Positions 2,293 through 10,923 of a DNA stretch of 23,084 bases are shown piece by piece. The notes under the pieces were generated by a model. The model saw nothing but the letters and a program-made list of their open reading frames with translations, ran no database searches and had not been told where the DNA came from. The position numbers were made by a program, and so were the translations under genes. Within the stretch, counting starts at the first letter, position 1. Each line of letters opens with the position of its first letter. The DNA is from a virus. Location: positions 1 to 23,084 of the IMG/VR virus record IMGVR_UViG_3300011013_000104; one strand, 5' to 3'.

Positions 2293-3318
2293 TTATAAAG
2301 ATCTGATCGTACCATTGTAGGGATCGTTAGTGTTTCTTTCATAAATAGCTTCCCATCCCGCTAGATTATCCCCAGAGGTAAGACCCCCACATACGTAATC
2401 ACTTAAGTCGCCAACACGATTTTCCTTTAGTTTCAAAGAAATATTAATTACATGAGGAGTGAGAGTCCCAACATCATATCCTGCATTTTCCACAATTTTT
2501 ACATTATAGCTCTCCACTAAACACGGAATATTATTATACATTGGCCCATGGGTAAGTCTAACAGTTGGGGGACCATAAGCAGAATTTTTAGAATTATTTA
2601 ATACGGTCCCTCTAATTAAGTTTAGCCAAAAATACAACAGATTTATAGTATCGTCGATGACTTTTGTGTTTAGTGATTCAACCGAAGCCTCAAGAGACTT
2701 TGTAAAAAAATCTGAAAACTCATCAAACGCAGGAGTATCCACAACATAGTTGATAAGGGATCTATAGTAATCCCTATGAATTTTAGCATGATTTACAGGG
2801 TCGCGCTCCATACGAACTTCGTTAGCGTCTAGTAGTCGTTCCGGCGTCATAATCCCATTCCCCATAGTATGTTCGTAAATATCAAATACGCCACCTATAT
2901 TACTTTTACTAATATCACCAGGATCAAGCCAACGTAAATCCGACTCTGTTTTTAACGAAAACATCATTCTTTGCTTATCTTTATTATCAAAAAACAATTT
3001 AAAATTTTGTAGGAATCTACTGGCAAGGCCCTCTCTGGTGGTAATATGATACAAGTGTAATAAGTTTATATTAAACGATAAACTTATTTGCCTAGACTCG
3101 GCACCCATGTAGGAGAATAAGTTACCAGCCCTTCCTATAAGAGAATATTCATCATATCTTGCATTACCGGATTCTGATATAATAGGATTCTCTAGAAACG
3201 GGATTTGGGCTCTTAAAGTGCGCCCTTTTTCAGTAGGAAAGTCTAAAGAAAGATAAGATCTCTCTTCTAGTTTTCTTTTTACAAATTTATCATAAAAAAG
3301 TTCAGACTTCGTTTTCAT
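2293..3318 (-). CDS. Tail tube initiator / baseplate hub-like protein (tentative)
   Basis: A 341-residue protein. Two regions resemble tube-fold proteins of contractile tails. Residues about 55-86 contain SLIGRAGNLFSYMGAESR followed by the alternating strand ISLSFNINL. Residues about 250-297 run from PPTVRLTHGPMYNNIPCLVE through NISLKLKENR, like the 'PP.v.f.wG...y.g.l......v..slkE' layout of tube proteins that pair with LysM proteins. The start has a strong purine-rich ribosome site (GGGAGAGG) lying in the last codons of the tape-measure gene, and only two bases separate the two genes. The position between the tape measure and the LysM gene fits a hub-to-tube adaptor. The fold assignment rests on motif resemblance only and could be wrong; a structural tail protein is a safer call than a specific T4 gene. 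Confidence 0.5.
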   Translation of the reverse strand: MKTKSELFYDKFVKRKLEERSYLSLDFPTEKGRTLRAQIPFLENPIISESGNARYDEYSLIGRAGNLFSYMGAESRQISLSFNINLLHLYHITTREGLASRFLQNFKLFFDNKDKQRMMFSLKTESDLRWLDPGDISKSNIGGVFDIYEHTMGNGIMTPERLLDANEVRMERDPVNHAKIHRDYYRSLINYVVDTPAFDEFSDFFTKSLEASVESLNTKVIDDTINLLYFWLNLIRGTVLNNSKNSAYGPPTVRLTHGPMYNNIPCLVESYNVKIVENAGYDVGTLTPHVINISLKLKENRVGDLSDYVCGGLTSGDNLAGWEAIYERNTNDPYNGTIRSL

Positions 3319-3320
3319 TT

Positions 3321-5117
3321 TTACTTACCTCTCCCTCCAGGAATGATAGGGTCTACTGGAGCTAATTGTGGTTTTGGTGGTGGCTTATTTGCAAGTGCTT
3401 CTGTTGCATCTGCAATGCGCTCCAAAAGTGCTTTCATTTGTATCTCCGAGAACACTTGTGAGGTTTTGCCTCTAGTAGCCGCAGTAATAACACTAGTTGC
3501 CAGCTTTAACCCTGTATCCCTTTTAATTACAGCTGCTTTTTTCCGTGCAGCTTCCTCTTCAGCCAATTTCCTAGCTTTCTCTGCTTCTTCGGCAGACTTG
3601 TCGGTACTATTCCAAATATCGCTAAGGAAAGGGATCCCGAATTCCAGAAGGCCCCATATTGCACCTATAGGAGTTGCGACTTTGGCGAAGTTCAGCGCCA
3701 TCGACCCCAAGCCACGGGCAACTCGACCGATAGGTTGCCCAAGTCCAGGTCCTACGGTTTTAGGTAGTGGTGAAGGGGCAGGTAGCATGGATTGTGGTAT
3801 TCCCCGAGGGTGCAGGGGTGGCAAGTCTTGTGACCTTCTGGGAGTCATCTTAAGGGGGCCTCGACGCCCAGGGACTGCGAGCGGGAAAGTTCCGGCAGGG
3901 GCTTGGGTGAGGGACGTTCTGCCGGTTCCTAATCCTGGATATGACCTCTGGGCGAGGACAGGACTTTGTCTTGGATCGTGTTCCCTTAACCCAGCACCCA
4001 AACGCCCCTTAAGTGCCATACCCATTTGAATTGCCTTTATCGCAAGTGCGGTATGGAAGAACTTCTTAGTTAAATCTAGCATCTCAGGAGCCCACTGGTC
4101 GTAGAACCTATCAACACTTTCTTGCCTTGCTGCTAAGGTTGCCCTTTGGTCATCGGCAGATGCTTTAAGTTCATCCGTAGTTTGATTATTTTTCTTAAGA
4201 AGTTCTCCCAGAGCAAGCAAAGATTGTATTTGAGGACGACCAATAGTCTCAGCTAAGACCTGAGCCTGCATAGGTTGGTCCGAAAGCCTTTGCCGTATAT
4301 CCTCAGAAGCATCTACGATCATTTGGAGATGTCTATCCCCAATCTCTGACCCGTCTCGAACTTCCGTAAACAATCCCTTTAACCCAAGCATTTCCTGTTT
4401 GGTAATCTCCATAGCGTCACCCATGGATAGAAGAACTCCAATTTGTTTTCTAGCCTCTTGCTTTCCTACTGTTGCACCCTCTAAAAGTACTCCTAACTTA
4501 GCTAAGTTACCTACAGCCTGAGGTCCATAAATTGTAAAGGATTCCAGTTGTGTGCCAAGGGATACTATACCCTCTAAAAGCTTATCCGATGTAATTCCAT
4601 ACTTTTTAGACGTATCTCTCGTAACCCTCATTAAATCGGATACTGCTTCGGAGTCCTCATCAATAAAGGTAGTTAATAGCTGCATTGCATTGATTAAGCT
4701 TCTAGTGTCTTGACCAGTTATAAGTAAATCATCGGCCAAGCTATCCATTGCAATATTATTGGATCTTACACCTTCCTGCCATGCATCAATCATAAATTGG
4801 GTAGATTTATTATAAGATACTGAAAAGGAATCTAGCCTTTCACTGTTTTCCTCTAAGAACCCAGTTAACTTAATAAAATTCCCAGCAGATTGTTGTTCAA
4901 TCCTACTAAGCTTAGTAGTAGCGTCAGTAAATTTCCCAATAAAATCAATATTACTTGCAATCTTAGTATGGAGATTAATTATACCAAACCTAAGCATATC
5001 CAAAGCTGTATTGGTGCCATCGAGAGCCTTGGAAAACTCTTTCCCCATTATTTGTTGGGCAACTGTAAGCTCTCTGACTGCTAATAGTGCTTGATTGTCT
5101 TCCTGTCCATTCGCCAT
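3321..5117 (-). CDS. Tape-measure-like tail protein (gp29-like position)
   Basis: A 598-residue protein. Residues 1-370 are almost wholly helical and Gln/Leu/Asp-rich, as in tail tape-measure proteins. Residues about 371-465 are a Pro/Gly/Arg-rich linker. Residues about 470-500 are hydrophobic (GSMALNFAKVATPIGAIWGL), and 505-530 form a highly charged Ala/Glu/Lys helix ending in KKAAVIKR. The length is close to that of T4 gp29 (590 residues), the T4 hub and tail-length protein, which would suit a tail of about 100 nm. The start is supported by AGGA seven bases upstream, and TAATG overlaps it with the preceding gene's stop. No muramidase or peptidase motif is seen. Tape-measure function is inferred from composition, length and neighbours. 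Confidence 0.65.
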   Translation of the reverse strand: MANGQEDNQALLAVRELTVAQQIMGKEFSKALDGTNTALDMLRFGIINLHTKIASNIDFIGKFTDATTKLSRIEQQSAGNFIKLTGFLEENSERLDSFSVSYNKSTQFMIDAWQEGVRSNNIAMDSLADDLLITGQDTRSLINAMQLLTTFIDEDSEAVSDLMRVTRDTSKKYGITSDKLLEGIVSLGTQLESFTIYGPQAVGNLAKLGVLLEGATVGKQEARKQIGVLLSMGDAMEITKQEMLGLKGLFTEVRDGSEIGDRHLQMIVDASEDIRQRLSDQPMQAQVLAETIGRPQIQSLLALGELLKKNNQTTDELKASADDQRATLAARQESVDRFYDQWAPEMLDLTKKFFHTALAIKAIQMGMALKGRLGAGLREHDPRQSPVLAQRSYPGLGTGRTSLTQAPAGTFPLAVPGRRGPLKMTPRRSQDLPPLHPRGIPQSMLPAPSPLPKTVGPGLGQPIGRVARGLGSMALNFAKVATPIGAIWGLLEFGIPFLSDIWNSTDKSAEEAEKARKLAEEEAARKKAAVIKRDTGLKLATSVITAATRGKTSQVFSEIQMKALLERIADATEALANKPPPKPQLAPVDPIIPGGRGK

Positions 5118-7630: not shown

Positions 7631-8569
7631 TACAACAGTTTGATTTAAAGCTTCAAACTTCAGTCTAGCAACGTAGGTGCCAGTCATTGCCCCTAAACTT
7701 CCGTCCAACAATCTTGGATGGGTCTTCAATAGGTTTGTATCAAAATTAAATATAACCGTATTTTCAGAAGTTACGTCTATTAACCCAGAGGTTTCCGTGT
7801 AACCGGAAACTTCCACCCTCGCACCAAGGTTTCTATCTACATTCTTTTTGTAGATCTCGATCATTGGGTTAGTGACCAGAGATTGTTTGAACAAGTTCAC
7901 TATTGACCGGTCTATATTTACATTCTCGATTGTGAACTCATTAGTGAACTTAAGATCAACTTTTGAACCTAAAACTACAAAGTTGTTATCCAACCTAGTA
8001 GCTACTCTGAACAGTAAGGGCTCAGTTACACCGAAGAATCTGTCTTCAGTTAAAGTAAACTCATTTACAATTGTGTCGAGATCCGACCCCGCGACCCTCT
8101 CAACAGTCCAAACATCAATATAATCCCCTGTTGATGAGACAGTGTTATACACCCTCGTTAAAACATCGGGAACTGCGGAAAGGTTAAACTGACCACTTGG
8201 GGTAAGTGTGGGGGAGTTCAGAACTACAGCAAATTTACCTTGAGAAAGCCTATAGATCCCCGATGCATCATCAATATTGTAGTTTGTGGGGTTAAAAGCT
8301 TCCTCAATAGTTGCGCCCGTCTTCACTATTGCTGCACTATTCGAAAAGTGCATCATTATATTCCCCGACGCTGTGGACCTTAACTCTCCATCCGAATTTA
8401 TTACGGAGTTTGGACTTTGATTATCTGAAGCCGCAAAAATGGAGACGCCACTGACAGCATAGGGGTCAGTATACTGACCATCATTAATAAAGTATAAAAG
8501 TAAAGCTGTTGGGCCTAGAACTGTGGGTCTCTCAAATCTAGTGGTTACGGGATTGCCATTGATTTTCAT
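7601..8569 (-). CDS. Beta-rich virion protein of unknown function
   Basis: A 322-residue protein dominated by alternating strands and Thr/Ser/Asn/Val residues, with no Cys and no membrane segment. Examples are DYIDVWTVERVAGSDLDTI, EPLLFRVATRLDNNF and a C-terminal GTYVARLKFEALN segment. This composition is typical of phage decoration, collar or fibre-adaptor proteins, but I do not recognise the family. ATG at 8569 has GGAAGA nine bases upstream. Its first 32 bases overlap the end of the chaperone's -1 frame, which suggests coupled translation. It is co-directional with the hub chaperone, so a tail or neck structural role is likely. Confidence 0.7.
   Translation of the reverse strand: MKINGNPVTTRFERPTVLGPTALLLYFINDGQYTDPYAVSGVSIFAASDNQSPNSVINSDGELRSTASGNIMMHFSNSAAIVKTGATIEEAFNPTNYNIDDASGIYRLSQGKFAVVLNSPTLTPSGQFNLSAVPDVLTRVYNTVSSTGDYIDVWTVERVAGSDLDTIVNEFTLTEDRFFGVTEPLLFRVATRLDNNFVVLGSKVDLKFTNEFTIENVNIDRSIVNLFKQSLVTNPMIEIYKKNVDRNLGARVEVSGYTETSGLIDVTSENTVIFNFDTNLLKTHPRLLDGSLGAMTGTYVARLKFEALNQTVVSNEFAFLIR
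7606..7633. terminator. 8-bp inverted repeat at the convergent primase/structural gene ends
   Basis: GTATCAAA and TTTGATAC form a perfect eight-pair stem around a 12-base loop. It sits inside the 30-base overlap of the plus-strand primase end and the minus-strand structural gene end. The stem is AT-rich and no U-tract follows it on either strand. The position suits a bidirectional transcript end or an RNA 3'-stability hairpin, but termination is not shown by sequence alone. Confidence 0.3.
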
Positions 8570-8741
8570 TTTGAAGATCTTCCATTCTTTTCATATCTTC
8601 CGCATAGAATTTCAAGAAAGACATCCTTTCTTGCTTTTTCATTCTTTTAACGTCAGAATATGAAAAGCCAACTTTATGTATTAATATGTAGGCTTGATAA
8701 AGAAGTTCATCCAGGGATAAAGACTCTATCAGCTCACTGAA
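8538..8741 (-). CDS. -1 frame extension of the hub chaperone (67 codons, probable frameshift product)
   Basis: After the slippery heptamer, the -1 frame reads FSELIESLSLDELLYQAYIL and continues through SYSDVKRMKKQERMSFLKFY to QSRNH and a TAG at 8540-8538. It is a compact, helical, charged domain. The pattern around residues 33-48, 'SY.DV..M...ER..FL', resembles the second-frame helices of tail assembly chaperones. It has no ATG, GTG or TTG between its in-frame upstream TGA and the internal ATG at about 8645, which would leave only about 35 codons. Translation therefore probably enters from the 248th codon of the gp26-like frame, giving a 315-residue fusion. Alternatives are a CTG or ATA start with coupling to the upstream stop, or a homopolymer sequencing error that artificially splits one gene. 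Confidence 0.6.
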   Translation of the reverse strand, partial: FSELIESLSLDELLYQAYILIHKVGFSYSDVKRMKKQERMSFLKFYAEDMKRMEDLQNENQWQSRNH

Positions 8742-9484
8742 AAAAAATCAGCACCAAATGGGATCTGCATCATAGTAGTTTCGCCGCAAGACGGACATTC
8801 GAACAGAAACCTGGGGTCAATACCAAATTCATTTAAAGAGATTTCTTTAGCAAGAGTCTTTAAATCCCTAATATGCATTCTCTTTAAAGCCTTTGAAATA
8901 AACACAGGATCCTCATTGCCGTCCAGGGATACAACAAATCTGTACAAGTTGTTACTCGCTAACTCTATGTCTTCAATGAAAGACTCCTCATGAACCCTAG
9001 GGAACCGAACTTTAGCCTCCACTTTAAGCATCGGGAGATCGACTAGTCTAGGGTCCTCTAGGGACTCAGGAACGTATCTCACATTCAGGTGGTCCCCTAT
9101 ATCCAAAGTAGATTTAATCTCTGTGCTACAGGCGGGGCACGCTATGTCAAAGTCATATTCCGATCCATAGGAAGCTTCCCTAACCTTTGTTAAAAGATAA
9201 AACTTATCCATTAACACCAAGTCATGTATATCCACACCCTCAACGCACTTCTCTAAAAGCTTATTAATTATGGAACTTCCTTTGCCTTTAGAATTTAAAA
9301 TCTTCTCTTCTTCATAAAAAGAAAGCGGAGATACTGTTACTTTGGAAACATCCTTATAGAATTTTCCTCTAGAAGGTAAATCAACTTCAATATCCTCGTC
9401 TTTGGGCATACTAGAAAATAAAGCCTCCAAAGCTTTATCCCTTGCCGCTCCCACATCCTTACCCATCCCCTTAAGTTCGCTCAT
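8729..9484 (-). CDS. 26: Baseplate hub assembly chaperone, zinc-knuckle type (gp26-like)
   Basis: A 251-residue protein. The N-terminal half has the T4 baseplate-chaperone signature: VDLPSRGKFYKD at about residues 34-45, then VTVSPLSFYEEEKIL. Two paired-cysteine knuckles, CPAC (Cys116, Cys119) and CPSC (Cys230, Cys233), probably bind one zinc. T4 gp26 acts with gp51 and other factors to assemble the central baseplate hub; it is an assembly factor and not an enzyme. The start has a good ribosome site (AGGA, seven bases upstream). The zero-frame protein ends three codons after the slippery run (SVS then TGA). It lies next to the UvsW gene, transcribed away from it, with 38 bases between the start codons. 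The gene symbol is given by family resemblance. Confidence 0.75.
   Translation of the reverse strand: MSELKGMGKDVGAARDKALEALFSSMPKDEDIEVDLPSRGKFYKDVSKVTVSPLSFYEEEKILNSKGKGSSIINKLLEKCVEGVDIHDLVLMDKFYLLTKVREASYGSEYDFDIACPACSTEIKSTLDIGDHLNVRYVPESLEDPRLVDLPMLKVEAKVRFPRVHEESFIEDIELASNNLYRFVVSLDGNEDPVFISKALKRMHIRDLKTLAKEISLNEFGIDPRFLFECPSCGETTMMQIPFGADFFSVS
8741..8747 (-). promoter_or_regulatory. Programmed -1 ribosomal frameshift site, U UUU UUU
   Basis: On the minus strand the run is eight T. In the zero frame it reads GAT TTT TTT TCA, so the heptamer T TTT TTT is an ideal X XXY YYZ slippery site with both tandem codons UUU. The zero-frame stop is 9 bases further on, while the -1 frame stays open for 67 codons. 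I see no strong pseudoknot directly downstream. The call rests on heptamer phase, frame layout and the chaperone context. Confidence 0.6.
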
Positions 9485-9522: not shown

Positions 9523-10923
9523 ATGAAAATAACAGTGGGGTGTTTAACTTCCTACCTGGAAACCGATAACCCTAAAATACTAGGAGGGTTAAGGGATAAG
9601 TATGCTTTCCCTATACCGGGACATCAATATGCCCCCTCTTACCGATCTCGAAGATGGGATGGTAAAAAAAGATATTTTGGCCTCAACGGTAAGTTCAGAA
9701 CTGGAATATTAAGCAGAATATTAAAGGACTTGGAAACAATTGGAGTAGATCTTGAAAAAGATTTAGAAATAAAGTATAAGGATCCTCCCCCTTTAGATGT
9801 TCCAGTAAAAGAGATACCTGGATTCAAGTATAGAGATTATCAAAAAGATGCAATAGATTATTGTCTCAAAAAGAGAAATGCAATCGTGGATTCTCCTACT
9901 GGATCTGGGAAAACTCTTATCATGGCGGGAGTTGTAGCGTCAATGCTTTCTAACATCCCCGAAACAGTATGCGTAATATTGTTTAGAGAGAAAGGAATCC
10001 TTAATCAAACATTAAAATTCTTTCAAAAATGTGGTATTCCCAATCTAGGGTTTAACTCTGGGGACGGGTATCAGCACGGGAACATAATGTTATCCACAGT
10101 CCAAAGCATAGAGAAGATCCTGGATACCCATCTAGAAGAAGCAGAAATCCTAATGGTAGACGAAGCACATCAGTTCTGTAAGGGAGAAACTACCATTGCC
10201 GCTATAGAAAGCTTCCCTAACGCTATGTATAGGCTAGCTTTTACTGCAACACCTCCTAGGGAAAATGCTAAGGATATAAACGCTAGAATGGTTTTGGAGG
10301 GGGCATTTGGTCCTGTATACACAACTAGGACTGCTGAAGAACTCGTGGAGGATGGAAGTTTAGCTAAACCCATAATTCAAATCGTAGATAACCCTCCAGT
10401 ATCCTCAGTAGAGGAAGGACTTAGTTACCAAGAGATTTATGAAGAATATATCGTAAACTGCGATACTAGGAATGATAAAATAAAGGATATTGTAACTAAA
10501 GTGTATCAAAACAATCCCAACGCAAAAATACTAATACTGGTTAAGAACCTTCTCCATATTGAAAATTTACAATCAAGAATAAGAAATTGCTACACTATAG
10601 AAGGAAAAGACGAAATCGGAAGTAGATATGAAGTTATTAGAGATTTCGTGGACAACAAAAAGCCAGCAACTATTATTGGTACGAACGTCATGCAAACCGG
10701 GATTAGCATTAATGAGATAACCCACATGATAAATGCAAGAGGGTTGTCAGGAGAAGTTCCTACCCTGCAAGGTCTGGGTCGTGGTATTAGGAAGTCTGAG
10801 GGAAAGGATAAAATGTATTTTTACGATTTCTACGACCGAATCCCCTACTTAGAGGGACATTCTAAAGCTAGGATAAGGCACTACAAAAGATTAAAATTTG
10901 AGGTAAACAATGTCAAACTCTGA
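9523..10923 (+). CDS. uvsW: UvsW-like superfamily 2 DNA/RNA helicase
   Basis: A 466-residue protein with a complete helicase superfamily 2 motif series: Walker A SPTGSGKT (124-131), DEAH (213-216), TATP (241-244), TNVMQTGISI (about 387-396) and the arginine-finger motif QGLGRGIRK (416-424). The first 90 residues (MKITVGCLTSYLE, RSRRWDGKKRYF) match the small N-terminal domain of T4 UvsW, whose full length is 502. In T4 the enzyme unwinds R-loops and recombination intermediates and shuts off origin-dependent replication late in infection. AAGG lies 12 bases before the ATG, which is a little far. It overlaps the next plus-strand gene by 14 bases, so the two are probably co-translated. Confidence 0.92.
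   Translation: MKITVGCLTSYLETDNPKILGGLRDKYAFPIPGHQYAPSYRSRRWDGKKRYFGLNGKFRTGILSRILKDLETIGVDLEKDLEIKYKDPPPLDVPVKEIPGFKYRDYQKDAIDYCLKKRNAIVDSPTGSGKTLIMAGVVASMLSNIPETVCVILFREKGILNQTLKFFQKCGIPNLGFNSGDGYQHGNIMLSTVQSIEKILDTHLEEAEILMVDEAHQFCKGETTIAAIESFPNAMYRLAFTATPPRENAKDINARMVLEGAFGPVYTTRTAEELVEDGSLAKPIIQIVDNPPVSSVEEGLSYQEIYEEYIVNCDTRNDKIKDIVTKVYQNNPNAKILILVKNLLHIENLQSRIRNCYTIEGKDEIGSRYEVIRDFVDNKKPATIIGTNVMQTGISINEITHMINARGLSGEVPTLQGLGRGIRKSEGKDKMYFYDFYDRIPYLEGHSKARIRHYKRLKFEVNNVKL

Follow-up and report, generated by a model that had tools for sequence, protein, structure and literature searches.

Passages on tail assembly in a 2016 account describe the chaperone frameshift as widely conserved in long-tailed phages 'except T4', and describe phage lambda, in which many copies of the short form (G) and few of the long form (GT) sit on the tape measure and the C-terminal domain recruits tube subunits (PMC5009743). 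Tail assembly chaperones of T4-like phages were identified by Vladimirov, Gautam and Davidson (2022, Virology 566:9-15, as cited in PMC10274946 and PMC12846349), and to judge from these citing papers the idea of a frameshifted T4-type chaperone was already published at that point. One of them, citing Vladimirov, mentions that some T4-like phages have, in place of frameshifting, a short gene alongside a longer, fused one (PMC10274946), and the other cites polyT as a known -1 signal in the TAC-N genes of T4-like phages (PMC12846349).

The window analyzed here is a stretch of 23,084 nucleotides of viral DNA (IMG/VR record IMGVR_UViG_3300011013_000104), and its gp26-like gene very probably encodes, as judged from sequence, a TAC-N/TAC-NC (G/GT-type) tail assembly chaperone of an uncultivated T4-like phage that was probably contractile-tailed. 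Like T4 gp26 (TAC-N) and gp51 (TAC-NC), its products belong to PF12322 and phrog_150, the short form corresponding to gp26 and the predicted long form to full-length gp51. However, T4 has two genes, as the initial annotation had stated and as we could see, whereas the window, from an uncultivated clade, has a single gene that appears to be frameshifted. Frameshifting is reportedly conserved in several T4-like groups, the T4 group itself being said, in the abstract of the 2022 study, to have separate genes. As in lambda gpG/gpGT and other siphophage chaperones, a short form would be accompanied by a rarer -1 long form with a C-terminal extension. The slippery site differs, however, being G GGA AAG in lambda; the gp26-like protein of the window also has CxxC motifs, and no significant sequence similarity to these chaperones was found. 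The window also resembles the myovirus TAC of Pakpunavirus Adele and the Vandenendeviridae, in which, according to PMC12846349, a conserved polyT sequence (GTTTTT) serves as the -1 site and the -1 frame beyond it is free of stops; these phages are another lineage and are likened by arrangement. As a matter of sequence the finding is almost certain, but given the 2022 publication it is of limited surprise; what is new is the uncultivated clade, together with indications that two other groups of the family shift by +1 (or -2).

A slippery heptamer near the end of a gp26-like gene

The short form matched Pfam PF12322 (T4_baseplate) with an E-value of 3.9e-16 and 59.8 bits, above the curated family cut-off of 24.5 bits, and phrog_150 ('baseplate hub') with an E-value of 9.5e-19 and 68.9 bits, reaching profile position 234. 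Its final zero-frame codons read GAT TTT TTT TCA GTG AGC TGA. They contain T TTT TTT, a canonical X XXY YYZ heptamer, three codons ahead of the stop and within a run of exactly eight T. The initial annotation had placed and phased the site correctly. The -1 frame opens with the codon TTC, and a shift would give a long product of 315 residues; coordinates, codon counts and product length all agree with those first given for this locus. In the -1 frame the first codon is preceded by a stop 6 nt away, and the earliest ATG, GTG or TTG lies 99 nt downstream, confirming the lack of a nearby start codon. Ordinary initiation therefore cannot supply the conserved first half of the -1 frame.

Table 1. 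Features of the chaperone locus, in positions of the window.
Feature	Coordinates	Strand	Description
gp26-like gene, short form (TAC-N)	8729..9484	minus	251 aa; ORF, PF12322, phrog_150; stop TGA 8731-8729
Slippery heptamer T TTT TTT	8741..8747	minus	zero-frame phase, inside T8 run 8747-8740
Putative -1 extension (TAC-C domain)	8538..8741	minus	67 codons and stop; -1-frame coding pattern, conserved, helical model
Frozen synonymous patch CAAGCCTACATATTAATA	8679..8696	minus	about 45-60 nt downstream of slip

Conservation and selection among relatives

A search with the window protein alone returned no relatives, and distant homologues diverge too far for their alignment to serve as a query. Relatives were instead collected in two ways. 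Using the portal protein as bait, we obtained 80 related viral contigs, 19 of which hold the gp26-like gene and the extension; in these the gp26-like gene is 46-58% identical and the extension 52-67% identical (E 1e-15 to 1e-23), and in 19 of 19 the extension lies in frame -1, preceded by T TTT TTT T in the zero-frame phase. A search with the aligned gp26-like proteins yielded 80 loci, 78 of them intact and 61 distinct, on contigs partly shared with the first set. All 78 intact loci (61 of 61 distinct) retain the heptamer in phase and an extension that is open in frame -1. The T run numbers eight in 58 of the distinct loci and seven in three, in which the heptamer is still in phase. The initial annotation had reasoned that relatives might instead join the two frames through a run of 7 or 9 T, or give the downstream frame its own start codon. 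Neither was seen: no frame-joining run length occurred among dozens of independently assembled contigs, and within 30 nt of the slip the -1 frame holds no ATG, GTG or TTG in any of the 61 distinct loci. Because every relative keeps the heptamer in phase together with an open -1 extension, chance can be excluded as the origin of this arrangement on the strength of the comparison.

To examine the reading frame of the extension we compared synonymous and nonsynonymous change past the zero-frame stop. In the -1 frame, pN was 0.215 and pS 0.603, and differences at the three codon positions were 0.265, 0.142 and 0.488; both other frames are interrupted by stops in every sequence. The extension thus evolves as coding sequence, with a pattern that indicates purifying selection on a -1-frame protein. 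Selection also acts on the slip codons themselves. Synonymous difference at invariant gp26 residues averages 0.57, and the two TTT slip codons are the only invariant-residue columns with zero synonymous change, whereas other invariant Phe codons of the gene vary synonymously at 0.31-0.53. The nucleotides are therefore under selection, beyond any need for Phe-Phe alone.

Synonymous sites are also nearly frozen, in all relatives, in a second patch within the extension, CAAGCCTACATATTAATA in the window, with the consensus CAAGC-TA-ATATTARTA. The patch may be a stimulator or some other signal. That it is a repeated promoter was considered and rejected, as it is found almost exclusively in the extension. 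Consensus RNA folding around the slip site in the relatives gave zero pairs and so no conserved downstream stem-loop; the window folded by itself is predicted to form a stem (z -2.87), which was absent from the folded relatives.

The predicted long form has the layout of gp51

T4 gp26 and gp51 are both PF12322 members and resemble each other (single-pair E 2e-6). The long form of the window aligned to positions 12-281 of the 282 of phrog_150 with 77.1 bits, and T4 gp51 to positions 13-280. Because the long form spans the profile as gp51 does, the predicted frameshift product has the layout of gp51. The extension itself aligned in register with the gp51 C-terminus (window QAYILIHKVGFSYSDVKRMKKQERMSFL), with a weak profile match (E 0.0044). 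When profiles of the long forms and of five T4-type gp51 proteins were compared, the latter profile being shallow, a cysteine motif alone was aligned, and when the extension was searched as a single profile against the frames of distant relatives, nothing significant emerged.

AlphaFold2 models were made separately for the short form, which was modelled with confidence (pLDDT 84), and for the extension (pLDDT 88), which is predicted to be helical. Re-alignment of Foldseek candidates from the PDB to the N-domain left two chains with Z of at least 5, YqbN (3klu, Z 7.9) and the HK97 tail assembly chaperone (2ob9, Z 6.4), both covering residues 28-108; with Z below 8 these matches are moderate, and the PDB Foldseek E-values were not significant. 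YqbN comes from a prophage and belongs to a chaperone-type family, and that both top matches to the model are chaperone-type, with the predicted N-domain fold resembling that of the HK97 protein, is telling. The extension model had no significant match in a viral structure library (best E 0.09); among the non-significant matches listed, Gp51 of Prochlorococcus phage P-HM1 was third and several tail assembly chaperones were present. Against the PDB the best match of the extension had a Z of 4.1, to an unrelated protein.

The 'hub chaperone' of the initial annotation is better read as a tail assembly (tape-measure) chaperone. Fold and logic would tie the 'hub' chaperones of T4 to those of the G/GT kind in siphophages. 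The initial annotation had suggested a shared logic for the two, and perhaps a shared origin; this is supported, and had already been published in 2022.

Probable shift sites and shift direction in distant relatives

Outside the clade of the window, T TTT TTC followed by a -1 extension was found in Atu_ph07, Phosso, PA5oct, 121Q, CBB, SCTP-2, cyanophage Sf-FS3 and Rhizobium phage IC12, and also in the uncultured LR756511, where the site lies 21 codons before the stop. In Sf-FS3 it lies one codon before the gp26-like stop. The Sf-FS3 locus at 3199-3390, which its record lists as a gene of its own ('baseplate hub assembly catalyst'), is the -1 frame that follows this in-phase T TTT TTC, and from its sequence is probably a frameshift product.

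Two other groups of the family have a different arrangement. In a large group typified by Flavobacterium phage immuto and Microcystis phage Mel-JY01, the +1 (or -2) frame is open in 77 of 77 intact loci, and in four of these the -1 frame is open as well. A near-invariant TTT YTT TGG CCT GAC close to the gp26-like stop is the probable +1 site in this group; YTT T in the P site resembles the +1 site of RF2. Of the 31 intact loci in an SP-15-like set, 29 carry a +1 extension, commonly preceded by TTT CGT or CC CGA, and the other two carry a -1 extension with T TTT TTC.

A tentative reading, which we consider possible and would not favor, is that one chaperone family switched the direction of its shift between -1 and +1 (or -2), with two separate genes in T4, and that the frozen patch of the window is a stimulator other than a stem-loop. 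The -1 side would comprise the clade of the window, jumbo phages, a cyanophage and a Rhizobium phage, all at T TTT TTY, and the +1 side the Flavobacterium/Microcystis-phage group at TTT YTT TGG CCT GAC and the SP-15 group at other sites. In the literature searched, which covered Vladimirov et al. (2022) as cited by others, we found no description of +1 (or -2) shifts in the gp26 family.

How the two frames may be joined

The frames could also be joined in the RNA, if polymerase added one U (or dropped two) within T8 in a fraction of the mRNA. A run of eight T falls in the length range where polymerases can slip, and it is present in 58 of the 61 loci. Such transcriptional slippage is nonetheless made less likely by the three loci with T7, which keep the in-phase heptamer, and by the distant relatives, whose T TTT TTC is a run of six T in the same phase every time; we consider it improbable. 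Far less probable still is a separate gene in the -1 frame, with its own start or reached by reinitiation at the gp26-like stop. Some related records are annotated in this way, that of Sf-FS3 among them, but none of the 61 loci offers a start near the slip, the first start in the window lies beyond conserved residues and is absent from some relatives, and a second gene would leave the frozen heptamer unexplained. Homopolymers are prone to error and a single metagenomic contig supplies the window, so one might suspect that sequencing or assembly got the T run wrong, or that the gene is broken, and that the true gene occupies one ordinary frame. The relatives refute this for practical purposes, since dozens of independently assembled contigs hold the run in identical phase, none with the frames joined, and isolated, finished phages have the equivalent arrangement at T TTT TTC; we give it hardly any weight.

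Conservation, codon-level selection, the absence of start codons, the full-length match of gp51 type and the chaperone-like fold together argue strongly for a -1 programmed ribosomal frameshift at U UUU UUU that yields a short and a long tail assembly chaperone, and we hold this reading, proposed in the initial annotation, with high confidence. Most ribosomes would terminate at the TGA at 8731-8729 and release the 251-residue short form (TAC-N, T4 gp26 type). In a minority, with Phe-tRNA in both the P and A sites at T TTT TTT, both tRNAs would slip one base back onto UUU UUU, and 67 more codons would then be read to give the 315-residue long form (TAC-NC, T4 gp51 type) with its extra, predicted helical C-terminal domain. 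If the two forms act as lambda G and GT do, the tape measure protein would be bound by the short form in many copies and the long form in few, with tube subunits brought in by the C-domain. We infer the slipping of the ribosome, its rate and the roles of both forms in this scheme.

A large uncultivated clade thereby adds to the evidence that T4 genes 26 and 51 replace a single frameshifted gene. For annotation, the downstream frame called '51' or 'hypothetical' in such phages would be best recorded as a frameshift product.

Gene neighborhood

In SP-15, LIS04 and immuto the chaperone gene lies between the tail tube and tape measure genes; in immuto the gene at the tube position carries the label 'tail completion protein'. 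Family searches recognized no tail tube gene anywhere in the window. A 598-residue protein encoded at 3321-5117 on the minus strand is a candidate tape measure by position and sequence character, and had zero matches in family searches. On the other side, a UvsW-like helicase (PF21241, ResIII) is encoded at 9523-10923 on the plus strand, divergent from the gp26-like gene, and together the two form a neighborhood that resembles the uvsW-25-26-51 region of T4.
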